Assembly: GCA_945883495.1 (NCBI GenBank)
Contig: CAMCXS010000050.1
Span: forward strand, 1 to 43,130
Direction of reading: 5' to 3'
From: Akkermansia muciniphila
GTDB taxonomy: Bacteria; Verrucomicrobiota; Verrucomicrobiia; Verrucomicrobiales; DEV007
DNA: 43,130 nucleotides
The position numbers and the translations under genes were made by a program. Shown here one piece after another: positions 9,790 through 25,202 of this stretch. The stretch's first letter is position 1, and the number at the start of each line of letters is the position of its first letter. Under the pieces are notes generated by a model, which had not been told where the DNA came from, did not search any database, and worked only from the letters and a program-made list of their open reading frames with translations.

Positions 9790-10902
9790 TTAGCGCTTCG
9801 CCGAAGATCGATCCGCTAGCCACATCGCTGTCCGTGGCCAGAGTCCGCCGTCCTTATGCGCTTTTCGACTGACCGCTAAGCCAATATGTCCGGCGTCAAT
9901 GGATAAGGAGCGGACATCCGAGCTGCCCACTTCCTTCTTCAAGGCCATTGTTGAGAGAGGTGGTACTAAGTGATCGGCATCAGCCGTGAGCAAGAGAAGA
10001 GGACACTTGATGTCCTTGAGGCTAATTCGCTTGCCGTTCAGTACGAACTCGCCTTTCACGAGTTGGTTCCCCTGGTAAAGGGATTTGACGAACTCCCGGA
10101 AGGTCTCCCCTGGAACCGGAATATTGTCATTGGCCCAACGCTCCATTGCGAAGAAATTCTGCAGGAAATCCTCATCGTAAAGACGTTCGTAGAGGTCTCT
10201 GTACTTCTGTACATAGTTGCGAACCGGCTTCATCATCTGGAAGGCGTTCTGAAGAAATGCTCCTGGGCAGTTCCCATAGGTATCGACTAGTGAATCCACA
10301 TCAAAGTACTCCGGATCCGTCCACAGATTCAGAAGTCCCTCTTTGTGATCAAAATCAATCGGAGCGGCCATGAGAATCAGGTTACGGACCTGCTCAGGAT
10401 AGAGGGCTGTGTACATGGTTGACATGGTTCCCCCCATACAATAGCCCAGTAAATTCAGCTGCGCCGAGCCCGTGGACTGGCAGACATAATCCCCTACGTT
10501 CTTCATGAACCCGCATACGTAGTCCTTGATGCGGAGGGTGCGGTCAGCCGCCGTGGGCACTCCCCAATCGATCAGATACACGTCGTGGCCCCGCTTAAGA
10601 AATTGCGATACCACGCTCCGGTCCGACTGAAGATCAAGGATATAAGGACGGTTCACGAGTGCAAAGCATACGAGTAGGGGCTCTGCGTAGTCCACGGTGT
10701 ATCCTAGAGCCCGGCCATTGTATCGAAGCAATCTGAGGGAATCCTCTTCATAGACGACCTCATGCGGCGTCCGCTCCACATCGACGTCACGGAAATAGCG
10801 ACCTAGGGTGGCGCCATTCATCCATCGGCCCCAGTTGCGGAAATACTCGGTCTGTGCCTCGCGCTGAAGCGTGAGGAAGGCATCGAACATTGGATTGGTC
10901 AT
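9790..10902 (-). CDS. phaC: PHA synthase class III subunit PhaC
   Basis: A 370-aa alpha/beta-hydrolase-fold polymerase that links (R)-3-hydroxyacyl-CoA units into polyhydroxyalkanoate on the granule surface. The lipase-box-like motif is GYCMGG, with nucleophile Cys155. The other triad members are Asp310 (TADADHLVPP) and His339 (DAGHIGLAV). The length near 360 aa and the linked phaE gene mark it as class III, which is active as a PhaC-PhaE complex on short-chain monomers. It is the last gene of the minus-strand phasin-phaA-phaE-phaB-phaC operon, 12 bp after phaB. The start ATG (10902) gives the expected N-terminus MTNPMFDAF. Confidence 0.95.
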   Translation of the reverse strand: MTNPMFDAFLTLQREAQTEYFRNWGRWMNGATLGRYFRDVDVERTPHEVVYEEDSLRLLRYNGRALGYTVDYAEPLLVCFALVNRPYILDLQSDRSVVSQFLKRGHDVYLIDWGVPTAADRTLRIKDYVCGFMKNVGDYVCQSTGSAQLNLLGYCMGGTMSTMYTALYPEQVRNLILMAAPIDFDHKEGLLNLWTDPEYFDVDSLVDTYGNCPGAFLQNAFQMMKPVRNYVQKYRDLYERLYDEDFLQNFFAMERWANDNIPVPGETFREFVKSLYQGNQLVKGEFVLNGKRISLKDIKCPLLLLTADADHLVPPLSTMALKKEVGSSDVRSLSIDAGHIGLAVSRKAHKDGGLWPRTAMWLADRSSAKR

Positions 10903-10914
10903 AGAGTCGCTAGG

Positions 10915-11724
10915 TTACCTCATGAGCATGCCGCCATTGACATCGAGAACGTGCCCGGTTATGTAGGAAGCAAGAGGTGAGCTGAGGAAGCTGACCGCAG
11001 CAGCGATTTCCCGTGGTTCGGCCAACCTGCCAATTGGCGTCCGCTCCAAGACCGATTGCATCGCTCGCTCGGGAACTTCAGCTGTCATCCGCGTCGAGAC
11101 AAAGCCAGGGGCAATGGCATTGACCGTGACTCCCTTCCGGGCATACTCAAGGGCAAGTGTTTTGGTGAGAGCAATCACCCCTGCCTTGGCCGCTGCGTAA
11201 TTTGCTTGGCCGAAGCCTCCGGCTTCACCAATGATGCTGGAGATATTGACGATCCGTCCCCACCCACGATCCGCCATGGCGTCAATAAAGCAGCGGGTAA
11301 CAGAGAAAACGCCGGTGAGATTGACCGCAAGGACACCTTGCCACATATCAAGGGTCATCTTCTTGAAACTCCGGTCACGGGTGATGCCGGCATTATTGAC
11401 CAGAATATCAATGCTTGGAAATGCCATTGAAACCTCGCGCGCCATGCGTTCGACGTCCTCGGGTTTGGCAATATCATGACTGTAGCTCGCTGAGCGTCGA
11501 CCCATGTCTTGGATCTCCGCTTGAACGTCGGTCGCAAACTTGCAACCGGTGTAGCAAGTGATCGCGACATCGGCCCCCAGAGAAGCGAGGCTCAGAGCGA
11601 TCGCGCGTCCGATTCCCCGGGAGCCCCCGGTCACAAGAGCGGTTTTTCCGTGCAGACTCCAATCCATCATCCGCACGAACTCGGTGTTGTTGAGTTCGGG
11701 GCTGGGAATCTCGTTGGTATGCAT
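10915..11724 (-). CDS. phaB: NADPH-dependent acetoacetyl-CoA reductase
   Basis: A short-chain dehydrogenase/reductase with the cofactor motif TGGSRGIG, the structural NNAG (NNAGITRDRSF), the catalytic Ser (NISSIIG) and Tyr-x3-Lys (YAAAK), and a C-terminal DVNGGMLMR. Between phaE and phaC it should reduce acetoacetyl-CoA to (R)-3-hydroxybutyryl-CoA. A FabG-type role is formally possible but less likely here. The start is ambiguous: a TTG at 11748 overlaps the phaE stop, the ATG at 11724 is used here, and ATG ATG near 11667-11670 would give about 252 aa, closest to the family length. None has a clear Shine-Dalgarno sequence. Confidence 0.9.
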   Translation of the reverse strand: MHTNEIPSPELNNTEFVRMMDWSLHGKTALVTGGSRGIGRAIALSLASLGADVAITCYTGCKFATDVQAEIQDMGRRSASYSHDIAKPEDVERMAREVSMAFPSIDILVNNAGITRDRSFKKMTLDMWQGVLAVNLTGVFSVTRCFIDAMADRGWGRIVNISSIIGEAGGFGQANYAAAKAGVIALTKTLALEYARKGVTVNAIAPGFVSTRMTAEVPERAMQSVLERTPIGRLAEPREIAAAVSFLSSPLASYITGHVLDVNGGMLMR

Positions 11725-11744
11725 GCTGTCTTTGGAGGTCGAGG

Positions 11745-12563
11745 TCAATTTGAGGACCGGTTGCGAGAGGGTTTGCCTTTGACTTTTGACTTACCGTTGG
11801 GTGGGGGCGGTGTTGAGCTTCGTGATCTCACTGTTGGTTTGTTTGTGCGAGGTTCGGCCGGGCGAGTCCGATTAGCTGCGGGCGCTTCTCTCGCAGTTCT
11901 TGGAGGCGGTCCGTCAGCGGTCATGCTGAGGTGCAGCTCGATGCGCTCCAATGCCGACGAGACGGAGTTCTCGAGGCGCTCCAATCTGGTGTGAAGTTGA
12001 TCAAGTGCTCCATCGACCAGGCGGCGGACGTCTCCCGATCCCTTGTTGGATCGGATAGTCTCCTCAAGCCGGTCCAGACGTTCCTCCAGGCTGCCGTTGA
12101 GGCGGGAGCCAATTCCGCCTTCAACGCCATTCATGCGATGCAATAGCTCTTCGTCGAGCCGCCGGATCAAATTGTCCTCAAAACTATGGAGACGCTCATA
12201 CAGGCCGCTTATGTCACTGGCTGTGGGAATACCCGCGTTGCGCGCGAACTCTTTCGTGATGTTGTCGGACTGCTGCTTGCTTTTTACGATAAAATCGGAT
12301 TGATGTCGCATCCACTCCAGAAACTGAGGCGTGCTTAGGTAGGTCTCTAGACTGTCGCTCATTGCGTCCATCCAGCGTCGCTCCCAGTCACGGAAGTAGC
12401 TTGAGGGGTTCATCATGTTCATGGGCAGGGTGACCGACTGCCAGGCGGCGCCAGTGGTCTCCTTTGCAAAATTCGCCCATAGATCCATGAAAGGACGCAT
12501 CATCGGATTGTCGAAAGCAGGATGGTCCGCCGGGAGCGGATGCTTGGATTTTGGAGTAGACAT
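11745..12563 (-). CDS. phaE: PHA synthase class III subunit PhaE
   Basis: A 272-aa protein that lacks a catalytic domain. It shows the PhaE-like N-terminal region (FMDLWANFAKE near residue 27; YFRDWERRWMDAM and PQFLEWMRHQSDF), then long amphipathic helices with coiled-coil character (residues about 110-215), and a basic Pro/Ser-rich disordered tail ending RNRSSN. PhaE stabilises and activates class III PhaC. The ATG at 12563 was chosen because the longer frame (12623) would start inside phaA; the gap to the phaA stop is then 13 bp. The stop overlaps a potential TTG start of phaB. The basic tail may contact granule-associated DNA or the synthase; that is inference. Confidence 0.85.
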   Translation of the reverse strand: MSTPKSKHPLPADHPAFDNPMMRPFMDLWANFAKETTGAAWQSVTLPMNMMNPSSYFRDWERRWMDAMSDSLETYLSTPQFLEWMRHQSDFIVKSKQQSDNITKEFARNAGIPTASDISGLYERLHSFEDNLIRRLDEELLHRMNGVEGGIGSRLNGSLEERLDRLEETIRSNKGSGDVRRLVDGALDQLHTRLERLENSVSSALERIELHLSMTADGPPPRTAREAPAANRTRPAEPRTNKPTVRSRSSTPPPPNGKSKVKGKPSRNRSSN

Positions 12564-12576
12564 AAGGAGTTGCGGG

Positions 12577-13782
12577 TTAGGGTTCGATAGCTTCCAAGGC
12601 CAGAGCGATGGCTTCGCCTCCACCGATACACAAGCAGGCGAGGCCGCGACGGCCGCCGGTACGGCGCAAACCTGTCAGCAGGGTGACCAGTAAGCGGGCG
12701 CCACTGCAACCGATGGGATGCCCGAGGGCCACTGCTCCGCCATAGATATTGAGCTTTGAGCGAGGAATCGCGAGTTCTTGTTCAGCAGCCATGGGTACTG
12801 CGGCGAAAGCCTCGTTGATTTCAAACAGATCAACGTTGGCTACTGTCCAGTTCAATTGATCGAGCAGCATATTGATCGCGCCGATTGGGGCCAGTGTGAA
12901 CCACTCTGGTTCGCGGCTGAAGGTGGCGTGGCCAACAATCTTTGCGAGGGGGCGCAGTCCGAATTGCGCGCAAGCACCGCCCGAGGCGATTGCGACGGCG
13001 GCCGCTCCATCATTGATGCTGGAGGCATTCCCAGCGGTGACGGTTCCATCTGGTGAAAACGCTGGACGTAGTTCGCGGAGCTTGGTGGCGTCAAATCTGG
13101 CCGGTTCTTCATCCTCTGCCACAATTGTGGACTTCTTGCGAATCATGACCTCCACCGGGACGATCTCATCGTCGAAGATGCCTTCTTTCACTGCCCGCCG
13201 GGCACGGAGATAGCTCTCTTCGGCGTAGTCATCCTGCTGCTGCCTTGTGAATCCATATTTGGCTGCGCATCGATCTCCGTAGAGGCCCATGTGTTTGTCG
13301 CCATAAACGTCCCAAAGACCATCATGGACCATGGCATCAATCACCTCTCCGTTGCCCATTCGGTAGCCATCGCGGGCTCTCAAGAGGAGGTAGGGCGCGC
13401 AGCTCATGCTTTCCATCCCGCCAGCGACGATTAACCGCGCCAGTCCGGTTTGGATAGATTGCATTCCCCAAATCACGGACTTCAATCCAGAGCCGCAAAC
13501 CTTGTTGACCGTGGTCGCTCCCACGGCGGGTGGGAGCCCGGCATAGATGGACGCTTGCCTTGCTGGGTTTTGGCCCAATCCAGCGGAGATGACATTTCCC
13601 ATAATGACTTCGTCAACTTCGCATTGGTCAATGCGTGCTTGCTCGACGACGGCCCGGATCACGGTCGCCCCAAGTTGTGGCGCCGACACGGTGGCCAAGC
13701 TGCCGCAAAAGGAGCCCATGGGCGTACGGGCGGCCGCCACAACAAACACTTCTTTTTCGATTAGGTCTCTAGATGCAGGCAT
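12577..13782 (-). CDS. phaA: Acetyl-CoA C-acetyltransferase (biosynthetic beta-ketothiolase)
   Basis: A 401-aa thiolase with the full set of motifs: nucleophilic Cys96 in NKVCGSGLKSV, NEAFAAVPM, GGAVALGHPIGCSGAR with the catalytic His, and the second Cys in CLCIGGGEA. It condenses two acetyl-CoA to acetoacetyl-CoA, the first step of PHB synthesis. It is the second gene of the PHA operon, 32 bp after the phasin stop. The length and both catalytic cysteines mark it as a true biosynthetic thiolase, unlike the SCP-x-type paralogue at 8-9.1 kb. Confidence 0.95.
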   Translation of the reverse strand: MPASRDLIEKEVFVVAAARTPMGSFCGSLATVSAPQLGATVIRAVVEQARIDQCEVDEVIMGNVISAGLGQNPARQASIYAGLPPAVGATTVNKVCGSGLKSVIWGMQSIQTGLARLIVAGGMESMSCAPYLLLRARDGYRMGNGEVIDAMVHDGLWDVYGDKHMGLYGDRCAAKYGFTRQQQDDYAEESYLRARRAVKEGIFDDEIVPVEVMIRKKSTIVAEDEEPARFDATKLRELRPAFSPDGTVTAGNASSINDGAAAVAIASGGACAQFGLRPLAKIVGHATFSREPEWFTLAPIGAINMLLDQLNWTVANVDLFEINEAFAAVPMAAEQELAIPRSKLNIYGGAVALGHPIGCSGARLLVTLLTGLRRTGGRRGLACLCIGGGEAIALALEAIEP

Positions 13783-13814: not shown

Positions 13815-14318
13815 TTAGGCCTCTACTTTCCCGAACGACGAGGACATCTCCATCCAGGATTTTGCGGCGTCTTGAAACTCCTTTAGCTGGGCCTCAGAAC
13901 TCTTCTGCCAAGCCGCAAGACTGGTGCGATAGAAGTCCTCCATCTTCTCCGCGAACGCTTCAGGGCTGGTAGTCTGCGTCAAGCGCATAGCTCCCTCGAC
14001 AGCCTCGACAGCGCTGCGATACTGGAGCTCAAGAACTTCGCGGCGCTTGGTCAACATGTGGTCGATCGTCTCTGCCCAACCGCTGTGGACCTTCTCCATG
14101 TCATCGGTGACGTTGGAGAAGGTCTGGGCGGTTGCCGACGTCCCATTAGTTCCTTGCCAACGGCCAGTCCATGTCTTTAGGAGGTCGCTCTGCATCCTAA
14201 GGAACTCCCGCTGCATTTCGACAGTGGTGTCGGCGGCTTTTCCTAGATATTCAAAGCTCTCGTTGAATACTTTCCGGCTTGTTTTTTGTGCGTGGTGCAT
14301 TGTTTCCTGATTGTCCAT
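13815..14318 (-). CDS. phaP: Phasin-family PHA granule protein
   Basis: A 167-aa protein that is all-helical, rich in Ala, Glu, Gln and Lys, with no cysteines. The pattern (VFNESFEYLGKAADTTVEMQREFLRMQ, AVEAVEGAMRLTQTTSPEAFAEKMEDFYRTSLAAW, ending FGKVEA) is typical of phasins, which coat PHA granules and set their size and number. It is the first gene of the PHA operon, and the divergent neighbour is phaR. In other bacteria PhaR represses phaP until granules appear. TGC-rich palindromes lie in the shared upstream region. Confidence is good from composition and context; family choice within phasins is not resolved. Confidence 0.82.
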   Translation of the reverse strand: MDNQETMHHAQKTSRKVFNESFEYLGKAADTTVEMQREFLRMQSDLLKTWTGRWQGTNGTSATAQTFSNVTDDMEKVHSGWAETIDHMLTKRREVLELQYRSAVEAVEGAMRLTQTTSPEAFAEKMEDFYRTSLAAWQKSSEAQLKEFQDAAKSWMEMSSSFGKVEA

Positions 14319-14403
14319 ACATCTACCATTGGCTTTGTTTTTGATTCCTATGAATCGCTCTGTGTAATCACATGCCAGAGACTAAAGATAAAGTCAAATG
14401 TTT

Positions 14404-14513
14404 TTGCTGCATGTGCAACAAAACGGTGAAGGCGTCATGCATATTGCATGATCCGGAATCAGTTGTCGGTTATCTGACGATTCCTCGGTCGGCTGCAGAA
14501 TGCTGCAAGTGCA
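14404..14513. promoter_or_regulatory. TGC-rich operator cluster between phaP and phaR
   Basis: Three elements lie in the 246-bp divergent region. TTGCTGCATGTGCA starts at 14404, and the same stretch extended by one A forms TTGC-N7-GCAA. CATGCA-TAT-TGCATG (14436-14450) is a perfect 6-bp palindrome. TGCAG-AATG-CTGCA (14494-14507) runs into ATGCTGCAAGTGCA (14500-14513). The first and last share TGCTGCA[T/A]GTGCA. TGC-rich inverted repeats are the known type of operator for PhaR in Alphaproteobacteria. The 13-mer ATGCTGCAAGTGC recurs exactly upstream of aceB. Confidence 0.6.
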
Positions 14514-14564
14514 CCTAGATTCTCGCCATTGCTGGAATCCTGAAAAAGGAGTAGAATAGCCACT

Positions 14565-15101
14565 ATGACCGCCGACGGGCCGATCCAAATCAAACGATAC
14601 CCCAATCGGCGTTTCTATGCCCGGCAAGCAAAGGCCTACGTTTCGCTGCAGGATATTGAACAGATGGTGCGCGATGGCCATACTGTGGAAATCACCGACA
14701 GCCAGTCCGGCGAGGAGATCACGAGGACAGTTCTAGCTCAGATCATCATGGAGCAGCACCCGGACAAGTTCTCGCTGTTCCCTACGGCGATGCTTCATTC
14801 CATCCTTCAGGCCAATGAGGCGATGTCTGACTTCCTTAAGGATTATTTTGAACAGTGTCTCACCTATTTAGACTTGCTTCGGGTCCAAGGGGCCTCCGCC
14901 CCGGTGCAGAATCCGATGGAGTGGATGCGGGCGTGGATGGATCGTATGTATCCGGGCACGCCCTTCCCGGTGCCGGGCTGGATGCCGCGGAAACCGGCTG
15001 CTCAAGAGGACGATCTGCGACGGCGCATGGCGGACCTGGAGGCGCGCCTTCGGCAAATGGAAGGCGATGCCCCCAAGCGTGGCGAGAGTCGCGCTGAGTA
15101 G
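14565..15101 (+). CDS. phaR: PHA synthesis regulator PhaR
   Basis: A 178-aa protein with the PHB_acc_N domain at the start (IKRYPNRRFYARQAKAYVSL, then DIEQMVRDGHTVEITDSQSGEEITRTVLAQIIMEQ, residues about 7-65), followed by the accumulation-regulator repeat region with LFPTAMLHSIL and a C-terminal coiled coil. PhaR binds both DNA and PHA polymer and derepresses phasin and PHA genes when granules form. AGGAG sits 12 nt upstream of the ATG, a slightly long spacing. It is divergent from the phasin operon and convergent with aceA (5-bp gap). Its likely targets include its own promoter. Confidence 0.93.
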   Translation: MTADGPIQIKRYPNRRFYARQAKAYVSLQDIEQMVRDGHTVEITDSQSGEEITRTVLAQIIMEQHPDKFSLFPTAMLHSILQANEAMSDFLKDYFEQCLTYLDLLRVQGASAPVQNPMEWMRAWMDRMYPGTPFPVPGWMPRKPAAQEDDLRRRMADLEARLRQMEGDAPKRGESRAE

Positions 15102-15106
15102 GGTAT

Positions 15107-16405
15107 TTAGGAGTGGCAGAACTGATCTGACTCGGTCGATTCGGCAAGAGCGGTCGTGGAGCTGGTTCCTCCCGAGACCACTTTGGACACCTCGTCAAAG
15201 TATCCGGTGCCGACTTCCTGCTGGTGCCGTGTGGCCGTGTAACCTCTCTGCTCCTGGGCAAATTCGCGTTGTTGAAAATCGCTGTAGGCCTTCATTCCGG
15301 CGCTGAGATAGTCCTTGGCCAGCTCAAACATGGAGAAATTCAGACTGTGAAAGCCCGCCAGCGTGACGAATTGGTATTTGTATCCGAGGCGGCCCAATTC
15401 GACTTGGAAATCCGCGATCTCCCGCTCGTCGAGATTGTGCTTCCAGTTGAACGATGGGGAGCAGTTGTAGGCGAGGAGCTTGCCGGGGAATTCGGCGTGG
15501 ATCGCCTCGGCGAAGGTTCGGGCGCGCTCCAGGTTTGGGGTTGAGGTCTCACACCAAATGAGGTCGGCGAAGGGGGCGTAGGCCTTGGCTCGGGCGATCG
15601 CCATTTCAAGCCCTCCTTCGATCCGGAAAAAACCGTCGGGGGTGCGTTGGCCGTTGAGGAAGGGTTTATCGACGGGGTCCGCGTCGCTGGTGATGAGCCG
15701 GGCGCTCTCGGCATCGGTTCGAGCGATGAGAACTGTCGGTACGTTCAAAACGTCTGCGGCGAGGCGCGCGGCGATGAGGGTGCGCAGGAATTGGGAGGTG
15801 GGGATCAGGACTTTGCCGCCGAGATGGCCGCATTTCTTCTCGGACGAGAGTTGGTCCTCGAAGTGGACGGCGGCGGCGCCAGCTTCGATCATCGCCTTCA
15901 TCATCTCAAAGGCATTGAGCGGACCGCCGAACCCTGCTTCCGCGTCTGCGACAATCGGAGTATACCAATCGATCCGGTTTTTAGCGCCCGAGGTTCGTTC
16001 AATTTGATCGGCGCGCATCAAGGCCTGGTTGATTCGCCTGACCAGGGTAGGAACGCTATTGGATGGGTAGAGGCTCTGGTCGGGATACGTTTGGCCAGAG
16101 AGGTTGGCATCCGCCGCCACCTGCCACCCGCTGCAGTAGATCGCCTGGAGCCCAGCCCGGACCATTTGCACTGCCTGCTGCCCGCTCAGGGCGCCCAGAC
16201 TACGGACCGCTGGTTCCGAGTGAAGGAGGTTCCAAAGCCGCTCGGCGCCGAGTCTGGCGAGTGTGTACTCAATCTGAACCGAGGTTCGCAGCCGCTCGAC
16301 ATCGCGATTGGAGTAAGGGCGTTGAATTCCCTGCCAGCGGTTTTGCGGCTCGGCGGAGGTTCCTCGATTTGATGCTTTGGATTTGGCCGCGGTCGATGAT
16401 TTCAT
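15107..16405 (-). CDS. aceA: Isocitrate lyase
   Basis: A 432-aa enzyme that splits isocitrate to succinate and glyoxylate in the glyoxylate bypass. The catalytic loop KKCGHLGGK is at residues 190-198 with Cys192. The metal/substrate region includes DAEAGFGG, and the C-terminus holds [16 protein letters not shown]. The length matches bacterial class isocitrate lyases. Its ATG overlaps the aceB stop by four bases (ATGA), so it is the second gene of aceB-aceA. It ends 5 bp from convergent phaR with no obvious terminator hairpin between them. Needed for growth on acetyl-CoA, including that released from stored PHB. Confidence 0.96.
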
Positions 16406-18036
16406 GGCGTTGGAGCGGGTTCGTCTTGGTACGTGTCGCGGGTTAAAAGATCGTAGGCTGGAATGGTAAGAAAATCGACGAGGGTTGGTGATGTGACGAG
16501 CTCGTCGATGAGGCGAGCGGCTTGCTCACGGCGGCTGGTAAGGTTGCGCTCGTCGCCGTTGAGGACTCTCAATCCGGCAAGTTCTTCGGCGAGAATCCTA
16601 CGGAACAGGGCCGCATCCACGACTCTGCCATCCTCCAGCTTCGCGCCATGCCGGATCCACTGCCAGAGTTGGGAGCGTGAGATCTCAGCTGTGGCGGTAT
16701 CTTCCATCAGGTTAAAGAGCGGCACGCATCCGAGTCCTCCAAGCCACGCTTGGACGTACTGCAGGGCGACGTTGACGTTCTGGCGTAGACCGGCCTCGGT
16801 TCTGGTGCCTCTCGGTGGCTCAATCAGGTCAATCGGCGTGGCTTCAAAGACTTCTAGAAGTTTGTGGATCTGGTTCCCCTGGTCCAAGGTTCCGAAGATC
16901 TCGCGAGCGAGCGGGACTAGGCCCGGATGCGCGACCCATGTCCCGTCGTGCCCGTCGGCTACCTCGCGACGTTTGTCTGCTGCGACCTTTTCCATTGCGG
17001 CTATGTTAGCTTCCGGATCATCCTTGATGGGAATCTGTGCCGCCATCCCGCCCATGGCATGGATGCCGCGGCGGTGACAAGTCTTTACTACCAAACGGGT
17101 GTAGGCCCGCAGGAACGGTTGGGTCATGGTGACTTGACTGCGATCGGGAAGAACGAAGTCAGGGTGTTCCCGGAACGTTTTGATGAAGCTAAACATGTAG
17201 TCCCATCGGCCGCAGTTCAGACCTGCGGAGTGCTCCCTGAGTTCATAAAGGATTTCGTCCATCTCGAAGGCCGCAGGCAGCGTCTCGATGAGAACGGTAG
17301 CGCGGATACTGCCACGGGGGAGATCGAGGTGATCCTGGGCAAAAAGGAAGACCTCATTCCAAAGGCGCGCCTCAAGGTGAGATTGTAACTTGGGAAGGTA
17401 AAAGTAAGGGCCGCTCCCTCGCTCCTGGAGCAGATGACGGGCATTGTGAAAGAAAAAGAGACCGAAATCCACCAACGCAGCGGGGATGGGGCATCCATCG
17501 CACCAGAGGTGGCGCTCGATCAAATGCCATCCCCGGGGTCTGACCATCAACGTGGCCGGATTATCGCCTAAGCGGTAGCACTTGCCGCTGGGACCATGAA
17601 ACTCGATGTCGCCCCGGACAGCAGCGAGAAGGTTGATTTGGCCTTGGATGCAGTTGTCCCAAGTAGGCGAATTCGCATCCTCGAAGTCCGCCATATACAC
17701 GTTGGCACCGGAATTGAGGCCGTTGATAATCATCTTCCGGTCAACAGGCCCGGTGATCTCCACACGGCGATCCACCAAATCAGCAGGAATTGGGGCTACC
17801 TTCCAGTCACTCTGGCGGATCCATGCGGTCTCTTCGATGAAATCGGGGCGAACGCCGGCGTCGAATTGGCGTTGCCGTTCCTGGCGTGCCTGGAGCAGCG
17901 TTGAGACACGTGGGGCGAATTCGCGTGATAAACTGGTGAGAAATTCTTGGGCACCACCATCGAGCACCTGGCTCACGTCGGCATTCCGGGGGCTTCGAAT
18001 TTCCAGTCCGGCAGGATTTTTTGCAACGTTCGCCAT
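16402..18036 (-). CDS. aceB: Malate synthase A
   Basis: A 544-aa enzyme that condenses glyoxylate and acetyl-CoA to malate. Family features include [29 protein letters not shown]-type sequence (residues about 94-122), the substrate/metal region around [16 protein letters not shown], and [16 protein letters not shown] with [10 protein letters not shown] further on. The length fits class A. First gene of the glyoxylate operon; aceA follows with a 4-bp overlap. Its leader (18037-18153) carries boxes matching the phaP/phaR intergenic region, one 23-36 bp before the ATG, where a repressor would block transcription. Function is confident; regulation is inference. Confidence 0.96.
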
Positions 18037-18379
18037 GGAAAGAATCGGTTTCCCTTAGATGCTGCAAGTGCGAGATAAATGCAAGCTAGACTTTTGCGCT
18101 TGCAATAGAGACCGAGGACGGCTCAGCGGAGTTTATGCAATGCTGCAATCGCGAAATACGGAGCTCGACGACCATGCCCGTAACTATTAGTACAGGTATT
18201 GATGACGCTTCGTACGAGCTTTCCACATAGCATGGTGATCGATCGGTTTAACAGAGTAAGTGCGAGGATCAAGCTTGCGCCCCAGTCGAGCCGGGAATAG
18301 ATTGTTCGCTAGAATAGGTAACTAACCCGATTTGAGGAATGTGCCGCGGGGACGGGTGGGGCTCGTAGGCCGGTGGCAA
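18037..18379. other. Divergent intergenic region between aceB and the DUF1353 gene
   Basis: A 343-bp divergent region. The half next to aceB holds the operator-like boxes listed separately. The distal part (18180-18379) contains ACTATTAGTACAGG and a CGTACG, but no clear promoter or gene is seen. A weak TTG (18332) or GTG (18341) start for the DUF1353 gene would shorten it. Confidence 0.5.
18059..18152 (-). promoter_or_regulatory. Operator-like boxes upstream of aceB, shared with phaP/phaR
   Basis: ATGCTGCAAGTGC (18059-18071) is identical to 14500-14512 in the phaP/phaR region. ATGCTGCAA recurs at 18140-18148 within AATGCTGCAATCGCG. TTGCGCTTGCAA (18094-18105) is a TTGC...GCAA element like the one at 14404. 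They lie about 23 to 115 bp upstream of the aceB ATG. Identity is seen; a common regulator is inferred. Confidence 0.55.
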
Positions 18380-19084
18380 ATGCACTTCCCTATTTCAACT
18401 CACAGCGGCGGCACTTCCAAACTCAGTGTCCATGAGTCCATTGGTCTGTTTGGATTCTTGACTGGCTCGTGCCTTTTGGTTGCTGGTGGCGCGGCGATCG
18501 TGATTTACGCCTGCACGGTGACAGGCGGAGACTTCCAGGCGTCTGCGGCCGTGTTTCGACGGTCCTTCGCGGGTGGAGATGGGTGGATGTGGGGATTTTT
18601 CTGGATGCTCTCTATCTCGATCTGGGGGGGGGCTGGATTGAGTCTGATATTTCACCCGCGGGAGGCCGGGCGGTTCGTTGGGGGGGCGGTGATTGAATGC
18701 GGAGAGGATGAGGAGGCTCTGCGGTTGAGTGAAGATCTCGCTTTTCGCGATGCCTCAGGAAGGCTTTGGAGTGCTCCTTGTGGAAGCGTCTTTCGAGGCG
18801 AAGCCCTGCCCAGCAGCGTATGGAAGATTCTAGGGCATCCCTTCGTCGGAGCGCATAGAGATGCGGCCATTATTCACGAGCATTATTGCCGGATGCGTGC
18901 AGGCCTGCCGGGCGAAGTTCATCAGATGTTCTATGAAGGGTGCCGATCCAGAGGAGTTCCTGAACCGATAGCGCGGCTGGCCCGCTGGGAGCTGGAGCAG
19001 CACGGACCTTCTTGGGGGCACGAACCTAGTGTGGAGAGGGGGCTTCCTTGGAATGGAACGAAGGTGAAGGGGCAGACGTGGTGA
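18380..19084 (+). CDS. Membrane protein with C-terminal DUF1353-like domain
   Basis: About 234 aa from the ATG at 18380 (TTG at 18332 and GTG at 18341 are possible earlier starts). Two transmembrane segments are visible, about residues 18-46 (IGLFGFLTGSCLLVAGGAAIVIYACTV region) and 66-90 (WGFFWMLSISIWGGAGLSLIF region). The C-terminal part has the DUF1353 layout: a LPSSVWKILG segment where DGASIP is usual, then RDAAIIHEHYCRMR, then a VHQMFYEGCRSRGV helix. DUF1353 proteins are uncharacterised and often phage-linked, but no phage genes are nearby. The 3' end overlaps the TreS-Mak frame by 37 bp (or just 4 bp if TreS starts at GTG 19081), so coexpression is likely. Family call is moderate because the central motif is degenerate. 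Confidence 0.65.
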   Translation: MHFPISTHSGGTSKLSVHESIGLFGFLTGSCLLVAGGAAIVIYACTVTGGDFQASAAVFRRSFAGGDGWMWGFFWMLSISIWGGAGLSLIFHPREAGRFVGGAVIECGEDEEALRLSEDLAFRDASGRLWSAPCGSVFRGEALPSSVWKILGHPFVGAHRDAAIIHEHYCRMRAGLPGEVHQMFYEGCRSRGVPEPIARLARWELEQHGPSWGHEPSVERGLPWNGTKVKGQTW

Positions 19085-22000
19085 CGGGACGTGATTCTGC
19101 ATCAGGCTGGTATAAGGACGCCGTGATTTACCAGTTACACGTGCGATCCTTTTGCGATAGCAACGAGGATGGCGTAGGAGATTTTCGCGGTCTAGTCACA
19201 AAGCTAGACTATTTGCAGGGCTTGGGAGTGACTGCGATTTGGCTGCAGCCGTTTTTCGTTTCGCCGATGCGGGATGACGGCTACGACATTGCAGATTACA
19301 CCGCCATCAATCCCGTTTATGGAGATCTGGATGAGTTTACACGATTTCTAGAGGAAGCTCACCAACGCGATCTTCGGATTATTACGGAGATGGTGATGAA
19401 TCATACTTCGGATCGTCACGACTGGTTCCAAAAGTCGCGTCGAGCGCAGCCCGGGGAAGAGTGGCGAGATTTTTATGTTTGGAGCCATGATGATCGACGC
19501 TATGCGGAAGCTCGGGTGGTTTTCGGAGAGTTTGAGACTTCGAACTGGACCTGGGACCCGGTGGCGCAGGCCTATTTCTGGCACCGGTTCTATCATCACC
19601 AGCCGGATCTAAACTTCGATCATCCTCCCGTCCGGGCTGCGATGATGGACGCGGTTGATTTCTGGCTAGGACTTGGCGTGGATGGCTTGCGTCTGGATGC
19701 GGTGCCGTATTTGTTCGAGCGGGAGGGTACCACCTGTGAGAATTTGCCGGAGACGCATGCGTTCTTGAGGGAACTGCGCAAGCATGTGGACGAGCGGCAC
19801 TCGGAGAAGGTGCTGCTGGCGGAGGCAAATCAGTGGCCAGAGGACGCCGCGGCGTACTTCGGAGATGGCGATGAATGCCACATGAATTTCCACTTCCCGC
19901 TCATGCCGAGACTCTTTATGGCGGTGGAGAGGGAAGATCGATTTCCGGTGATCGACATCTTGGAACAAACGCCGCCGATCCCGGAGAATTGTCAGTGGGG
20001 CGTCTTCCTTCGAAATCATGATGAACTTACGCTAGAAATGGTCACGGATGAGGAGCGGGACTATATGTATCGAACCTATGCTGGGAACCAAAGGGCGAGG
20101 GTGAACCTTGGCATCCGTCGCCGCCTTGCGCCATTGCTGCGAGACAACCGGCGGAAGATGGAGCTCATGAATGCGCTTTTGCTCTCGCTGCCAGGGACGC
20201 CGATTCTTTACTATGGCGATGAGATCTGCATGGGGGATAATGTCTACCTTGGGGATCGAGACGCGGTGCGGACACCGATGCAGTGGAGCGACGATCGCAA
20301 CGGCGGTTTTTCGCGAGCCAATCCTCAGCAGGTCTACTTGCCTACCATCGTAGATCCTTTGTTTCATTATGCCTCGCGAAATGTCCAAGTGGAGCACAGC
20401 CGTCCACACTCAATGTTGTGGTGGGTTCGGCGAATTATTTCCCTGCGGAAGCGATTTTTGGCGTTTGGCCGGGGCGACATCAGGTTCCTGGCTCCGACGA
20501 ACCCCAAGGTTCTGGCGTATTTGCGGAGATCGGGAGAAGAGATTATTCTGGTGGTGGCCAATCTGTCCCGCTATTCCCAATTTGCGGAGTTGGATCTCGT
20601 TGATTATCGAGGACGCGTGCCATTGGAGCTGTTTGGGCAGACGAGGTTTCCGCCGATCGGTGAGCTGCCGTATCTCTTGACACTGGGGCCTTATTCCTTT
20701 CATTGGTTTCAGCTGAAGTGGCTCCGGGAGGATAGTGAAGCGATGGACGTGAAAACCCCCGAGATTCAGTTGGCCGGCGCCTGGAGTAGCCTCTTCACTG
20801 GGAGGTGGCAGAAAGAGTTCGAGGCGACACTGCCCCAGTTTCTGAATCGTGCGCGATGGTTTGCTGGCAAGGCTCGGCAGATTCGGAGAATCAGTCTTTT
20901 GGATGCTCTGGAGAATTCTGGTCCCGTGGATGGGGAGAGTGGCTGGACGATGATCATCTTTCAAGTCGATTACCTGGAGGGGGAATCTGAAGTTTATACT
21001 CTTCCTCTCGTGTTTGCGTGTGGACGTCTTGAGAGAGATTTGGCAGGAGATCATCCAGGGACGGTGGTTGCGTTGCTCTCCGGCCCCCAGCCAGCGATGC
21101 TGTGTGAGGCGAATTGGACTGATTCGTTCTGGCGAGTGCTTGGGCAGGCGGTGGGCGGCGATCGGTCCCTCGGTCGGGGGAAGGGAACGATTCAAGTTGT
21201 GCGGGAAGCTCTTTCAGAAGGGCTCAGGGGAGATGTTTCCGGAAAGGTTACGATTTTGGGGGCAGAGCAAAGCAACGCCTCCGCGGTGCTGGGTGAGCGC
21301 CTTGTCGTAAAGCTTTTCCGGCAGATTTGGGAAGGGGAGAATCCTGAGCTAGAGATTGGCCGTGTTCTCACGGCAGCTAAATTTCAGGGGGCGCCACGAC
21401 TGGTGGCGGGGGTGAATTACTTAGGGCCAGATGGCACAAAGCGAACGTTGGCGAGCGCTTTTGAGTACATCGATAACGAAGGGAGTGGTTGGAGTTACAC
21501 GTTGGATGAACTCGGCCGATATTTAGAAGCGATTCAGCTGAGCGTAGATGGCTCGATGGGCAACGTTGCGTTGAGTCTTCCAGATGAGTGGGATCTCTCT
21601 TCGTATTTACACAGCATTGAGTTGTTGGGCCGTCGTACGGGAGAGCTGCACGTAGTGCTCGCCGGTGCCCCTGACGCGGCCTTTACGCCAGAAGCGTTTA
21701 CGACGCTTTATCAACGCAACTTGTATGAGGCTATGCGTTCAGAGGCGCGGCGGACGTTGGCGCTCCTCACTTCGGTGCGTCATCATCTTGACGCGGTCTC
21801 GTGCGATCTGGTGGAACGTCTGCTGCGCCGTGAAGATGTGCTGCTGGAGCAATATCGGGTGCTGGCGAGGCATCGAATCCGGGCGAAGCGAATCCGTTGT
21901 CATGGGGACTTTCACTTGGGGCAGGTTCTTTTTACGGGAAGGGAGTTTGTGATCATAGATTTTGAGGGCGAGACGGGGCGTCCCGTCTCAGAAAGAAGGA

Positions 22001-22359
22001 TTAAGGCTTCTCCCCTGAGTGATGTGGCCGGAATGTTGCGATCGTTCCATTACGCGGCCAGTGCGGCGCTTCGACTTCCGCGAAACGAATCGTTGCGGGC
22101 ATCCGTTCCGGCGGGAGTTCTAGAAGCGCGATTGAGGCGCTGGCAGCGGTTGACGACTGACCGGTTCTTGGCGGGCTACTTTCACACCGCTGAGCAGGGT
22201 GCCTTCTTACCAGAGGAGGAGGAGGATCGACAGATAGTCTTGACTGCGTATGTCTTGCGCAAAGCGGTCTATGAATTGCGATACGAGCTTAACAATCGAC
22301 CAGAATGGGTATCGATTCCGCTAGAGGGGCTTCTCGCGATCTTGGAGATTGAAGCGTGA
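19048..22359 (+). CDS. treS: Trehalose synthase fused to maltokinase (TreS-Mak)
   Basis: A 1103-aa bifunctional enzyme. Residues about 20-565 form a GH13 trehalose synthase (maltose/trehalose isomerisation): WYKDAVIYQLHVRSF at the start, nucleophile Asp217 (GLRLDAVPY), acid/base Glu259 (LLAEANQW), transition-state Asp325 (RNHDEL), and a beta-domain. Residues about 590-1103 form an aminoglycoside-kinase-fold maltokinase with the catalytic loop CHGDFHLGQ (Asp954) and IIDFEGE (Asp971), which makes maltose-1-phosphate from maltose and ATP. In other bacteria this product feeds GlgE to build alpha-glucan; no glgE is in the window. Start alternatives: ATG 19048, or GTG 19078/19081, the last giving a GTGA overlap with the previous gene and AAGGGG upstream. 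The stop overlaps treY (GTGA). Confidence 0.95.
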   Translation: MEWNEGEGADVVTGRDSASGWYKDAVIYQLHVRSFCDSNEDGVGDFRGLVTKLDYLQGLGVTAIWLQPFFVSPMRDDGYDIADYTAINPVYGDLDEFTRFLEEAHQRDLRIITEMVMNHTSDRHDWFQKSRRAQPGEEWRDFYVWSHDDRRYAEARVVFGEFETSNWTWDPVAQAYFWHRFYHHQPDLNFDHPPVRAAMMDAVDFWLGLGVDGLRLDAVPYLFEREGTTCENLPETHAFLRELRKHVDERHSEKVLLAEANQWPEDAAAYFGDGDECHMNFHFPLMPRLFMAVEREDRFPVIDILEQTPPIPENCQWGVFLRNHDELTLEMVTDEERDYMYRTYAGNQRARVNLGIRRRLAPLLRDNRRKMELMNALLLSLPGTPILYYGDEICMGDNVYLGDRDAVRTPMQWSDDRNGGFSRANPQQVYLPTIVDPLFHYASRNVQVEHSRPHSMLWWVRRIISLRKRFLAFGRGDIRFLAPTNPKVLAYLRRSGEEIILVVANLSRYSQFAELDLVDYRGRVPLELFGQTRFPPIGELPYLLTLGPYSFHWFQLKWLREDSEAMDVKTPEIQLAGAWSSLFTGRWQKEFEATLPQFLNRARWFAGKARQIRRISLLDALENSGPVDGESGWTMIIFQVDYLEGESEVYTLPLVFACGRLERDLAGDHPGTVVALLSGPQPAMLCEANWTDSFWRVLGQAVGGDRSLGRGKGTIQVVREALSEGLRGDVSGKVTILGAEQSNASAVLGERLVVKLFRQIWEGENPELEIGRVLTAAKFQGAPRLVAGVNYLGPDGTKRTLASAFEYIDNEGSGWSYTLDELGRYLEAIQLSVDGSMGNVALSLPDEWDLSSYLHSIELLGRRTGELHVVLAGAPDAAFTPEAFTTLYQRNLYEAMRSEARRTLALLTSVRHHLDAVSCDLVERLLRREDVLLEQYRVLARHRIRAKRIRCHGDFHLGQVLFTGREFVIIDFEGETGRPVSERRIKASPLSDVAGMLRSFHYAASAALRLPRNESLRASVPAGVLEARLRRWQRLTTDRFLAGYFHTAEQGAFLPEEEEDRQIVLTAYVLRKAVYELRYELNNRPEWVSIPLEGLLAILEIEA

Positions 22360-25202
22360 CGTCAGGCGGACAGCCGCACGAAATGGTGGCGAATTCAACG
22401 TATCGAATCCAGCTGAGTCCAAGTTTTCGGTTGGATGATGTGGGGAGATTGGTGCCATACTTGGCGGGGCTTGGTGTGACGCATCTTTACGCTTCGCCTG
22501 TAATGAGGGCGCGGAAGGGCAGTAGTCATGGGTATGACCAGGTGGATCCCCGCGTAGTGAATCCTGAGCTTGGAGGCGAGAGTGCCCTTGCTGAGCTTGG
22601 TGAGAAGTTGAAACGATATGGCCTCAAGCTGCTCGTGGATATTGTCCCAAATCATATGGCGGCTTGCTTTGAGAATCCGTTTTGGCGGGATGTCCTTACC
22701 TACGGCCGGGCTTCGCCCTACGCTGGATTCTTCGATATCGATTGGCGGATGGAGGAGATGGAGATGCGGGGGAGGGTGTTGCTGCCCGTGCTCGCGGTTC
22801 CTCTCCAGCAGACTCTGGAGCGGGAGCAATTGGTGCTCTTGTGGCAGGATGGTCGCTTTCTCCTGCAATACTTTGATCACATGTTTCCGGTGGATCCAGC
22901 AAGCATTCCACTCATCTGTGGTCCTCTTTTGCCCTGCGCCGGACCGGATACGAAGGCCATTGACGAGGTGAACCGCATCTTGCTTCACCTGCGAGAGCTT
23001 CCAGGAGCGGCTGCGCGTCTCCGGAAGAGAGTCGAGATCAACCGTGAGGAGATAGAGGGGGTTCTCTCCGAGTTTGCGCGTTTGGTGGTGCAGACTCCAC
23101 GCTTGCAAGATTGGATAGCGGAGAGTCTTGGTGCTTTTCATGGACAGAATTGTGGGTTGCTCCGGCTTCGGGGGGTGTTGAAACATCAAGCCTACCGCCT
23201 TGTGCATTGGCGTAGGGCAGCGAGCGCGATCAATTATCGGCGGTTCTTTGCCGTGAATGAGTTGGTCTCGATGCGTCAGGAGGATCCCGTTGTTTTTGAT
23301 ATGACTCATGCAGCGCTGTTTCGGCTTATCTCAGGCGGCGTTGTGAGCGGGGTGCGGGTGGATCACCTCGATGGATTGCGTGATCCGTTGCATTACCTCC
23401 AGCGACTGCGCTCCGTGAAGAGTGACTTGATGATTTATGTGGAGAAGATCCTTGGGCCGCGGGAAGTCTTGCCCAAGGAATGGCCAGTATCCGGGACTAC
23501 GGGCTATGAGTTCCTGAATGAGGTCGAGCGTCTTCTTGTTTCAGCGGGTGGGTTTCGCCGGTTGGAATCGCTCTACAATACGCTGATCAAGCGTGCGCAC
23601 CGCTTTGCGGACGTGGCATTGGACTGTAAACGAATGGTGCTCCGGCGTGAGTTTGCGGTGCCGGTTGAGCGACTATCTGAGGTTTTGCAGAGCTTTGCGG
23701 AGCGGGTGGCGCCGACGGCTTCAGTGGACAAAGTTGACTTTCGCGCCGCCCTTGTAGAATTGATCGCATCGCTACCAGTGTATCGGACCTACGTCTCCCC
23801 TCAGCGCCTGGAATTGAGTGAGCAGGAAGAGCTTCATTTCAGGGAGGCTTTTCACACTGCGGTGATCGAGCGGCCGGACACCGGCTGTGCGATGGAACTG
23901 CTGGCGAAAGTGATTCTGCCGACGGAGCATGGTGGGCGAGGGGAGACTCTGGGTCACGAGAGGGTATGCTTTATGCAGCGTCTTCAGCAGCTGACGGCTC
24001 CCGCCGCCGCGAAGGGAGTTGAAGATACGGCATTGTATGTGCATGTCCCGTTGCTTTCGTTGAATGAGGTCGGTGGGGCGCCTACGGACGTGAACGAGAA
24101 CTCCATGGAATCGCTTCATGAAGCCAACCGGAGGCGTGCGGAGTGCTGGCCGCGAAACCTATTGGCCGTGACCACGCACGATACCAAGCGGAGTGCCGAT
24201 GTTCGCGCGAGATTGGATGTGCTTTCTGAAATTCCGGAGGAGTGGTGGAGAGTGGTGAATCGGTGGCGAGAAATGCATCGACCTTTGTGCTGCTCCACCG
24301 CGGGAGTTCCAGCGCCAGGACCAAACGCTCAATATGTGTTTTATCAGTCCGCTGTTGGCATTTGGCCCTCGGGCGGGGAGATCCCGTCTTCCGAGGAGTT
24401 GGCGGATCTTCGGGAGAGGTTGTGCCGCTATCTTGTGAAAGCGGTGAGGGAAGCAAAGTCTCGTACTTCCTGGGAGAGGCCAAACCGGGGCTATGAGGAC
24501 GCGGTGGACGCATTTGTTCGGGGCGCTTTATCAGCTGGATCTGCGTTTGTCGAAGAATTGAGCGCTTTCACCGCAATGATTGCGCATCAGGGGTATTGGA
24601 ATTCGTTGGCTCGGACGGCCATTCAGTATACCGCACCGGGTGTTCCGGACTTGTATCAAGGGGACGAGCTCTGGAACTTTCGCCTAGTGGATCCGGACAA
24701 CCGGCAAGCCGTGGACTTTGGCTTGAGGGAAAAGCTTCTTGGCGAGATGTTGGATGAGCTGAATCAGAAAAGAACTGAGGATTGGTTGAGGGAGCTGTTG
24801 GAAGCTCCGAGTGATGGCCGCATCAAGCTCTATGTGATTCACCGCCTGTTGCAGTTGCGCAGCGAGCACGGTGCCCTACTGGACGAGGGAAGCTATGAGC
24901 CAGTGCCGGCGATTGGGCCGCTGGCGAGGCATGTCTTCGCCTTTATCCGGCGGTATGGAGATGAGGCTCTGCTGACGGTGGTTCCTCGGCTGACGATGAG
25001 GGTAGGAAGCGGAACGGGCCGACCACCGATTGGGAAGGACTGTTGGCCTGAGGGCAATATGCTCGAACTGCCGCCGGATTTGGCGATCCGACGGTGGACC
25101 TGCGTATTTCGATCCCGGTCAGTGGCTTGGAGTGGGCGGCGGTTGCCGGTGCATCTCGCTCTGGCGAGTTTGCCTGCCGGATGTCTAATTGGGATGGGGT
25201 GA
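22356..25202 (+). CDS. treY: Maltooligosyl trehalose synthase (TreY)
   Basis: A 948-aa GH13 enzyme that converts the reducing end of a maltooligosaccharide to a trehalosyl unit. The N-terminus (STYRIQLSPSFRLDDVGRLVPYLAGLGVTHLYASP) and KGSSHGYDQVDP are diagnostic. Catalytic residues are nucleophile Asp336 (RVDHLDGLRDP), Glu363 (YVEKILG) and Asp in TTHDTKRSADVRARL. The C-terminal GVPDLYQGDELW and DPDNRQAVDF are present. The GTG start at 22356 overlaps the TreS-Mak stop (GTGA), a strong translational link. A second in-frame ATG at 22383 could be the real start. No TreZ, which releases trehalose from the TreY product, is in the window. Confidence 0.94.
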   Translation: MTSGGQPHEMVANSTYRIQLSPSFRLDDVGRLVPYLAGLGVTHLYASPVMRARKGSSHGYDQVDPRVVNPELGGESALAELGEKLKRYGLKLLVDIVPNHMAACFENPFWRDVLTYGRASPYAGFFDIDWRMEEMEMRGRVLLPVLAVPLQQTLEREQLVLLWQDGRFLLQYFDHMFPVDPASIPLICGPLLPCAGPDTKAIDEVNRILLHLRELPGAAARLRKRVEINREEIEGVLSEFARLVVQTPRLQDWIAESLGAFHGQNCGLLRLRGVLKHQAYRLVHWRRAASAINYRRFFAVNELVSMRQEDPVVFDMTHAALFRLISGGVVSGVRVDHLDGLRDPLHYLQRLRSVKSDLMIYVEKILGPREVLPKEWPVSGTTGYEFLNEVERLLVSAGGFRRLESLYNTLIKRAHRFADVALDCKRMVLRREFAVPVERLSEVLQSFAERVAPTASVDKVDFRAALVELIASLPVYRTYVSPQRLELSEQEELHFREAFHTAVIERPDTGCAMELLAKVILPTEHGGRGETLGHERVCFMQRLQQLTAPAAAKGVEDTALYVHVPLLSLNEVGGAPTDVNENSMESLHEANRRRAECWPRNLLAVTTHDTKRSADVRARLDVLSEIPEEWWRVVNRWREMHRPLCCSTAGVPAPGPNAQYVFYQSAVGIWPSGGEIPSSEELADLRERLCRYLVKAVREAKSRTSWERPNRGYEDAVDAFVRGALSAGSAFVEELSAFTAMIAHQGYWNSLARTAIQYTAPGVPDLYQGDELWNFRLVDPDNRQAVDFGLREKLLGEMLDELNQKRTEDWLRELLEAPSDGRIKLYVIHRLLQLRSEHGALLDEGSYEPVPAIGPLARHVFAFIRRYGDEALLTVVPRLTMRVGSGTGRPPIGKDCWPEGNMLELPPDLAIRRWTCVFRSRSVAWSGRRLPVHLALASLPAGCLIGMG

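Follow-up and report, generated by a model that had tools for sequence, protein, structure and literature searches.

We analysed a stretch of 43,130 nucleotides, referred to below as the window, which carries a run of PHB synthesis genes, a divergent regulator gene and an aceBA operon. The genes of the locus are as follows.

9790..10902, minus strand: phaC, class III PHA synthase subunit (TIGR01836, 377.4 bits, cut-off 365.3)
10915..11748, minus strand: phaB/fabG-type reductase (Pfam adh_short_C2)
11745..12623, minus strand: phaE-like gene, named by position only, with the class III phaC downstream; no family match in Pfam or NCBIfam
12577..13782, minus strand: phaA, thiolase (Pfam Thiolase_N and Thiolase_C)
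13815..14318, minus strand: phaP-position gene, phasin-like by position only, first in the pha run and divergent from phaR; no match in Pfam or NCBIfam
14565..15101, plus strand: phaR homologue, the proposed regulator (PF07879 DNA-binding domain, E 4e-23, 81.7 bits, cut-off 25)
15107..16405, minus strand: aceA, isocitrate lyase (NF011645, 743.8 bits, cut-off 562)
16402..18036, minus strand: aceB, malate synthase A (TIGR01344, 797.5 bits, cut-off 594.5)

The phaR homologue adjoins the PHB synthesis genes, with class III PhaC, thiolase and reductase encoded in the divergent run, and shares invariant DNA-binding-domain residues with the PhaR proteins of S. meliloti and Azospirillum. It scores 80.9 bits against the NCBIfam PhaR equivalog TIGR01848, under the cut-off of 109.45, and is therefore named a PhaR homologue rather than a certified equivalog. 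The aceA gene, convergent with phaR, shares 4 bp with the end of aceB, and the order phaR, aceA, aceB is retained in G001 and G002, the genomes of two other species of the genus. Crotonyl-CoA carboxylase/reductase (CCR) was not found above its family cut-off in any of the three genus genomes, so the genus may depend on the glyoxylate bypass alone to turn PHB-derived acetyl-CoA into C4 compounds. Outside the genus, PF07879 genes occur in G177 and G273, two genomes of the same phylum, beside a gene resembling an acetyl-CoA hydrolase/transferase gene; no PF01274 match was found in either.

The original prediction concerned a 13-mer, ATGCTGCAAGTGC, said to occur exactly both in the phaP/phaR region and before aceB. 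It does so at 14500-14512 and 18059-18071, the only two exact copies in the 6,456,236-base (6.46-Mb) genome, and the second begins 23 bp upstream of the aceB start (18036, minus strand). The related copies reported at 14404 (TTGCTGCATGTGC) and 18140 (ATGCTGCAATCGC) are likewise present, each two mismatches from the 13-mer. The chance of about 0.002 given for the shared word agrees with a simple calculation (about 234 x 283 pairs of positions, times 2 strands, / 4^13), and its whole-genome context is stronger than that estimate. The special feature of the motif is its placing, not its number. The whole genome contains 12 matches with up to one mismatch, against 7 for the reversed pattern, and the window contains 20 with up to three mismatches where 12.85 are expected, a mild excess equalled in 2 of 100 shuffles. 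The flanks of the two exact copies differ, so no longer duplication is seen.

The 13-mer is one form of a 16-bp element, TTTGCTGCANNTGCAA, which is kept before phaP, phaR and aceB in both G001 and G002. A position weight matrix (PWM) was built solely from the six phaP/phaR sites of the three species, and the aceB sites were excluded from it. The candidate sites, and a conserved block beside the first of them, are listed here.

14385..14399, minus strand: 15-bp block beside operator P (ATTTGACTTTATCTT on the minus strand), all 15 columns invariant across the three species
14403..14418, plus strand: candidate PhaR-type operator P (TTTGCTGCATGTGCAA), 84 bp upstream of the phaP-position gene
14499..14514, plus strand: candidate PhaR-type operator R (AATGCTGCAAGTGCAC), 50 bp upstream of phaR
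18058..18073, plus strand: aceB site 1 (GATGCTGCAAGTGCGA), -22 to -37 from the aceB start; PWM score 16.2
18094..18109, minus strand: aceB site 2 (TCTATTGCAAGCGCAA), -58 to -73, in reverse orientation; PWM score 10.1
18139..18154, plus strand: aceB site 3 (AATGCTGCAATCGCGA), -103 to -118; PWM score 17.4

Absence of the motif from close relatives had been named beforehand as refuting the proposed link, and both genus relatives keep it before all three genes. Operator P (PWM score 25.1, a model site) is found at the same place in G001 and G002, and operator R (22.3, also a model site) is retained in G001 and has a degenerate right half in G002. The three aceB sites lie at matching distances in all three species. 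Counterparts of site 1 score 8.3 in G001 and 15.7 in G002 (-21 to -36 in both, after a 3-bp start correction in G002), those of site 2, on the same strand, 20.2 and 10.5, and those of site 3 13.4 and 19.2. The best aceB scores in the three species (17.4, 20.2 and 19.2) were reached by none of 383 control tiles, which have a maximum of 13.4, and by 0, 0 and 1 of 500 shuffles. The lowest site in each species (10.1, 8.3 and 10.5) scores under the best control tile, and another G001 site, the site 3 counterpart, only equals it; the support for such sites comes from their position. Invariant columns across the three species make up 25/32 within the sites and 75/220 in the surroundings of the phaP-phaR region, and 26/48 and 21/94, respectively, in the aceB region. 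Site 2, on the opposite strand, and the conservation in two related species are additions to the earlier description of the locus.

Upstream regions of 15 aceB genes from other genera of the phylum scored low, at most 10.5. Of the 20 other genomes with PF01274 matches, 15 supplied these genes (G284 and four with weak matches were omitted), and their starts were placed by tblastn guidance; the start codon of L076 is uncertain, and L083, only 24% identical to the query, may not be aceB.

We then considered the motif across whole genomes. A strict pattern, WTGCTGCANNYGCR, has 13, 7 and 2 matches in G000 (the genome of the window), G001 and G002, against 11, 4 and 9 for its reversed control, and 3, 7 and 7 in G003, G014 and G018, where the PhaR search gave no match; in G000 there is thus no genome-wide excess over the reversed control. 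Matches inside the pha-ace region number 4, 3 and 1 in the three genus genomes, and the remaining 14 fall within ORFs of at least 80 aa. This location offers weak support for coding, as GC-rich DNA often contains long ORFs by chance. When the pattern was loosened, the matches numbered 28, 16 and 26. Of those examined outside the pha-ace cluster, about a dozen were ambiguous and the rest coding-like by a crude coding score, which is rough and miscalled the G001 phaR site as coding; by eye, no neighbour gene common to the species was seen. A facing pair of copies on contig C27 was set aside as a PhaR target, since it looks like a separate inverted repeat; the gene after it resembles that of a VapB antitoxin.

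Short TGC-rich words are common, and the absence of strict-pattern enrichment, the matches inside ORFs elsewhere in the genome and the merely mild excess of the loose motif in the window speak for the shared 13-mer being a coincidence or a duplication relic. We regard this as very improbable, given the matching distances of the three sites in three species whose DNA has otherwise diverged, scores unmatched in any control tile, differing 13-mer flanks and the recurrence of the boxes in Paracoccaceae described below.

The motif also fits PhaR operators defined in other bacteria, which is consistent with the original reading of TGC-rich repeats as the PhaR operator type. An independent model of PhaR-bound sites from S. 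meliloti scores 28.1 (at operator P), 24.6 and 23.6 in the phaP-phaR regions of the three species, above all 797 control tiles (99% point about 7, maximum 16.5); its best aceB scores, 14.3, 11.9 and 20.0, are less extreme. The TGC and GCA triplets are present in the genus element as an inverted pair in PhaR-type flanks, with four bases between them rather than the three expected of a PhaR box. The spacer is three bases in the PhaR operators of S. meliloti, B. diazoefficiens, H. seropedicae and R. sphaeroides, one fewer than here, and N3-4 in that of P. denitrificans.

Individual systems show both likenesses and differences. The H. seropedicae PhbF/PhaR operator, TG[N]TGC[N]3GCAA, lies within a footprint and has identical triplets in the same order (TGCTGC...GCAA), with a spacer of N3 against N4 here; the protein represses its own gene and phaP, as proposed here, and glyoxylate goes unmentioned in the available part of that source (PMC3206438). 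The B. diazoefficiens operator, TGCRNYGCASMA, comes from footprints and is a TGC/GCA palindrome with the same half-sites and an N3 spacer (PMC6201568). Proposed targets of that PhaR extend to central carbon (pdhA and pckA), whereas isocitrate lyase and glyoxylate have no occurrences in the available parts of the two sources (PMC6201568, PMC10888616). S. meliloti PhaR/AniA is a PF07879-type regulator with a palindromic half-site (TGCTGCA in several sites, YGCR core) and one base between TGCA half-sites where the genus element has two. Its regulon takes in phasins plus central-carbon genes and is large and dispersed, whereas the strict motif here lies outside ORFs only at the pha-ace cluster (PMC12542648).

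Operons for aceBA often have a dedicated regulator, as a gene for an ScfR, XRE or other HTH regulator is divergent to the operon at 15 of 17 annotated proteobacterial plasmid aceA/aceB loci (19 were fetched and 2 unannotated ones left out). Another factor that senses acetyl-CoA, short-chain acyl-CoA or fatty acids might bind the element and control phaP, phaR and aceBA, with PhaR as a target; the regions also contain a few stretches of TTTGCAA, the corynebacterial RamB core. We consider such a factor quite unlikely. The regulator search covered the usual aceBA family, ScfR/RamB (PF09856), which was found in 0/3 genus genomes, of which G001 is only 81% complete, against 2/14 control genomes. 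In P. denitrificans the RamB site comprises a pair of boxes separated by 18 bp and lying 82 bp upstream of aceB. Like the proposed system, RamB, an ScfR-family protein, acts locally on the aceB-aceA operon according to carbon state, but it differs in family (PF09856), DNA boxes, CoA-ester ligands and action as an activator; PhaR goes unmentioned in the available part of that source (PMC10370305). Furthermore, Paracoccaceae carry a PhaR-like palindrome downstream of TTACAA/GTGACA repeats, taken as RamB boxes, and the motif itself fits PhaR operators.

Strong PhaR-type boxes (score at least 14) precede aceB in 7/12 Paracoccaceae plasmids and 6/58 alphaproteobacterial genomes, compared with 1/180 control upstreams; the other 52 of the 58 sampled alphaproteobacterial upstreams lack one. 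Scored with the S. meliloti model, taking the best over spacers 0-3, aceA/aceB upstreams reach 12.6 in S. meliloti, 9.7 in Shinella, 3.3 in R. tropici, 3.0 in Azospirillum, 0.4 in Mycetohabitans, -1.7 in Aureimonas and -3.3 in Sphingomonas, which indicates no general box in these seven proteobacteria.

The motifs in relatives, the operator fit and the failure to find ScfR lend support to the original suggestion that PhaR may also control aceBA. We propose that the five elements (at 14403, 14499, 18058, 18094 and 18139) are PhaR operators, through which the pha run, phaR and aceBA are repressed until PHB titrates PhaR, and we hold this to be likely. From sequence we infer the binding of PhaR, repression as its direction, and the sensing of polymer. 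When PHB is scarce, free PhaR would bind all five elements and repress phaR itself, the pha run (phaP-A-E-B-C) and aceBA. As PHB formed, PhaR would move to the polymer and repression of the three units would be lifted, so that the making and reuse of PHB would be switched together with the glyoxylate bypass.

The direction of control could differ at aceB, where bound PhaR might activate or only modulate aceBA, with polymer lowering the bypass. PhaR does activate some genes in B. diazoefficiens (PMC6201568) and S. meliloti (PMC12542648), and one aceB site lies far upstream (-103 to -118). We nevertheless think this unlikely, since the nearest site lies at about -21 to -37 from the start in 3/3 species, where a bound protein would be expected to hinder transcription, not to promote it. 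In S. meliloti, moreover, it is module 1, considered repressed by the authors, that is enriched in the motif; only seven activated genes carry it, and an isocitrate-lyase-family protein belongs to module 1 (PMC12542648).

That last observation makes the earlier statement that no description of the link was known too strong. Table 3 of the same study does not have aceA, aceB or SMc01727 among the PhaR-box-bearing promoters, and aceA goes unmentioned in its available part (PMC12542648). PhaR control of central carbon is already known, and operators at aceBA appear to be new.

PHB carbon reaches cell material via acetyl-CoA assimilation, and one regulator that reads the polymer would solve the problem of coordinating the two. 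PhaR control would also explain why aceBA adjoins phaR in the genus, and would provide a PhaR regulon in a probable member of the Verrucomicrobiota. The target of the verrucomicrobial probe EUB338-III occurs in 5 of 8 genomes examined, among them G002 but not G000, which makes that phylum likely. We see an even chance that in the genus a polymer sensor has replaced the usual acyl-CoA sensor, ScfR/RamB, at aceBA and that the same wiring overlays RamB in Paracoccaceae and scattered Alphaproteobacteria. If so, acetate assimilation in much-studied PHB producers would be gated by the amount of PHB as well as by acetyl-CoA esters. PhaR control predicts that aceBA in Paracoccus and its relatives is under additional regulation; for P. 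denitrificans Pd1222, icl-mCherry and ramB-deletion reporter strains are available (PMC10370305).

A sigma-70 consensus scan found no promoter, including at the 15-bp block beside operator P. The block, ATTTGACTTTATCTT, is a candidate phaP promoter element.

The sequence of the locus suggests a PhaR regulon that reaches the aceBA operon through separate, candidate operators at aceBA. The genes and sites concerned are:

14318, leftwards: phaP-phaA-phaE-phaB-phaC
14565, rightwards: phaR
18036, leftwards: aceB-aceA, probably a single operon because the two genes overlap by 4 bp
18058-18073 (+), 18094-18109 (-) and 18139-18154 (+): candidate operators before aceB (sites 1, 2 and 3)

The enzyme calls are sound by Pfam and NCBIfam and comprise malate synthase A, isocitrate lyase, a class III PhaC, a thiolase and a reductase. 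Neither Pfam nor NCBIfam has a family matching the genes called phaP and phaE, whose names are positional only. The regulator carries the PF07879 DNA-binding domain and falls under the cut-off of the NCBIfam PhaR equivalog, so we call it a PhaR homologue and not a certified PhaR. It shares 29-30% identity with the S. meliloti and Azospirillum PhaR proteins over the whole alignment, and its DNA-binding half retains the residues common to both. The aceA gene ends 5 bp past phaR, on the opposite strand.

An exact 13-mer had been noticed in both promoter regions, and it is indeed present at 14500-14512 and 18059-18071; looser copies were likewise confirmed at 14404 and 18140. Without mismatch, the 13-mer has no further copy in the 6.46-Mb genome. 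The underlying element, TGCTGC-N4-GCAA, has triplets identical to those of published PhaR operators with a spacer one base longer. These operators are given as TG[N]TGC[N]3GCAA inside a footprinted region in H. seropedicae and CTGC[N]3GCAG in R. sphaeroides (both PMC3206438), the footprint-derived TGCRNYGCASMA in B. diazoefficiens (PMC6201568), and YGCRNYGCR in S. meliloti (PMC12542648). We built a half-site model solely from S. meliloti, using 16 sites whose promoters are listed as bound efficiently and leaving aside the four exoH sites. Across the three species of the genus it scores 28.1, 24.6 and 23.6 on the phaP-phaR regions, each at the longer spacer, and 14.3, 11.9 and 20.0 on the aceB regions, against a 99th percentile of about 7 and maxima of 16.5 (spacer 2) and 11.6 (spacer 1) on 797 control tiles. 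By these scores PhaR is a strong match for the pha sites and a good one for the aceB sites, some of which score under the single best control tile.

The arrangement is conserved in the other two genomes of the genus that were searched (G001 and G002). Both retain the order phaR, aceA, aceB and a phaP-like gene divergent from phaR, within which the G001 contig stops. A search of 57 genomes, counting this one, gave AceB matches in the three genus members only. PhaR matched those three as well, and beyond them gave a single weak, partial hit, interrupted by three stops, in an order-level relative. The phaP and phaR sites of the three species, six in all, gave a 16-bp matrix that contains no aceB site, and this was run over the aceB upstream regions. 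Every species has three hits, at about -22, -57 and -102 and in the orientations +, -, +. Their scores are, by place, 16.2, 10.1 and 17.4 in this genome (G000), 8.3, 20.2 and 13.4 in G001, and 15.7, 10.5 and 19.2 in G002. The top score among 383 control tiles is 13.4; one aceB site per species falls below it and one G001 site equals it, so these sites are supported by position. Dinucleotide shuffles matched the best aceB score in 0, 0 and 1 of 500 cases (G000, G001 and G002). Invariant columns make up 25/32 within sites versus 75/220 outside in phaP-phaR, and 26/48 versus 21/94 at aceB. The motif is thus found in relatives, as the original prediction anticipated, before phaP, phaR and aceB in both G001 and G002, the G002 phaR site having lost its right half. 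Beside the phaP operator, a 15-bp block, AAGATAAAGTCAAAT (14385-14399), is invariant in the three species and is likely promoter sequence; a sigma-70 consensus scan found no promoter in the phaP-phaR or aceB region.

With the genus matrix, no upstream region among 15 aceB genes from other genera of the phylum exceeds 10.5; these came from a 387-genome draw, and one is a weak match that may not be aceB. A PF07879 search of a 387-genome draw of the phylum gave matches in G000 and two other genomes (G177 and G273) only. Presence of the motif thus seems to track phaR and not aceB per se. A dedicated aceBA regulator would be the alternative: of 17 annotated proteobacterial plasmid loci examined, 15 carry a gene for ScfR, XRE or another HTH regulator, transcribed divergently from aceA or aceB. 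The usual family, ScfR/RamB, has no match in any of the three genus genomes (G001 being only 81% complete), and 2 of 14 control genomes do match.

The PF07879 gene of G177 (L066, 7515-7949) and G273 (L067) is a second, different one. It adjoins a gene resembling acetyl-CoA hydrolase/transferase, neither genome has a malate synthase match, and its product is possibly a PhaR-type regulator tied to acetate metabolism. At L053 (about 1521-1551), a similar word is present as two copies facing each other; the resulting inverted repeat precedes a VapB-antitoxin-like gene and is probably an unrelated operator.

The candidate operator motif also occurs outside the phylum. In Paracoccaceae, the same palindrome precedes aceB, downstream of presumed RamB-box repeats (for example, ATGCTGCATCTGCGGCAT in Paracoccus alcaliphilus; ATGCTGCAACAGCAGCAT in P. 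methylovorus). In Paracoccaceae plasmid aceB promoters, PhaR-like palindromes are flanked by likely RamB boxes on one side and a conserved TGACATTACTA-like block on the other (L155, L162, L163, L164, L166, L156, L159, L165, L167 and L169). Scored with the S. meliloti model on promoter sequence alone, irrespective of PhaR presence in the genome, 9/12 Paracoccaceae regions reach at least 12 (shuffles: mean 0.18, maximum 2/12) and 7/12 at least 14 (mean 0.09, maximum 2). With two near-identical pairs merged, 7/10 reach 12 and 6/10 reach 14. Upstream regions from P. aminophilus, Thioclava and Cereibacter stay below 12 at spacers 1-2. From the class of Croceibacterium (Alphaproteobacteria) we also drew 385 genomes, of which 169 have a malate-synthase N-terminal match, and picked 58 aceB upstreams from these. 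On the same promoter-only basis, 6/58 aceB upstreams score at least 14, against 1/180 control upstreams of other genes (gap at least 60 bp; 19 genomes of the draw, 16 among the 58; Fisher one-sided p = 0.001, and 0.0002 to 0.004 over five thresholds, all uncorrected) and a shuffled mean of 0.29 (maximum 3/58). A strong box is absent from the other 52, so the link would be recurrent rather than general. No title or abstract opening in the literature searched, which lay mostly outside subscription journals, describes PhaR operators at aceA or aceB. In S. meliloti an isocitrate-lyase-family protein belongs to module 1, a set that its authors regard as repressed (PMC12542648). The available text of that paper gives no PhaR box for this gene and leaves aceA unmentioned, and that of a P. 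denitrificans RamB paper (PMC10370305) leaves PhaR unmentioned.

By analogy, the best-supported reading is that free PhaR would sit on the operators and repress, and that polymer would release it and so derepress the genes, as a review describes for phasin genes in several bacteria (PMC9049629). In all three species one aceB site lies at about -21 to -37, a position where bound protein would more readily block transcription than activate it. Since none of the three genus genomes has a CCR above the family cut-off (weaker relatives only), PHB-derived acetyl-CoA may have the glyoxylate bypass as its sole path to C4 compounds; if so, joint control of PHB and the bypass would be useful.

Beyond aceB, a divergent gene for a DUF1353 protein (18332-19084) lies about 180 bp from site 3 and could share the aceB operator array. 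Glycogen/trehalose genes also adjoin the PHB and glyoxylate genes: positions 19048-25202 hold two genes that overlap by a few bases, one for a fused alpha-amylase/maltokinase protein (trehalose synthase type) and one for another member of the alpha-amylase family, possibly TreY.
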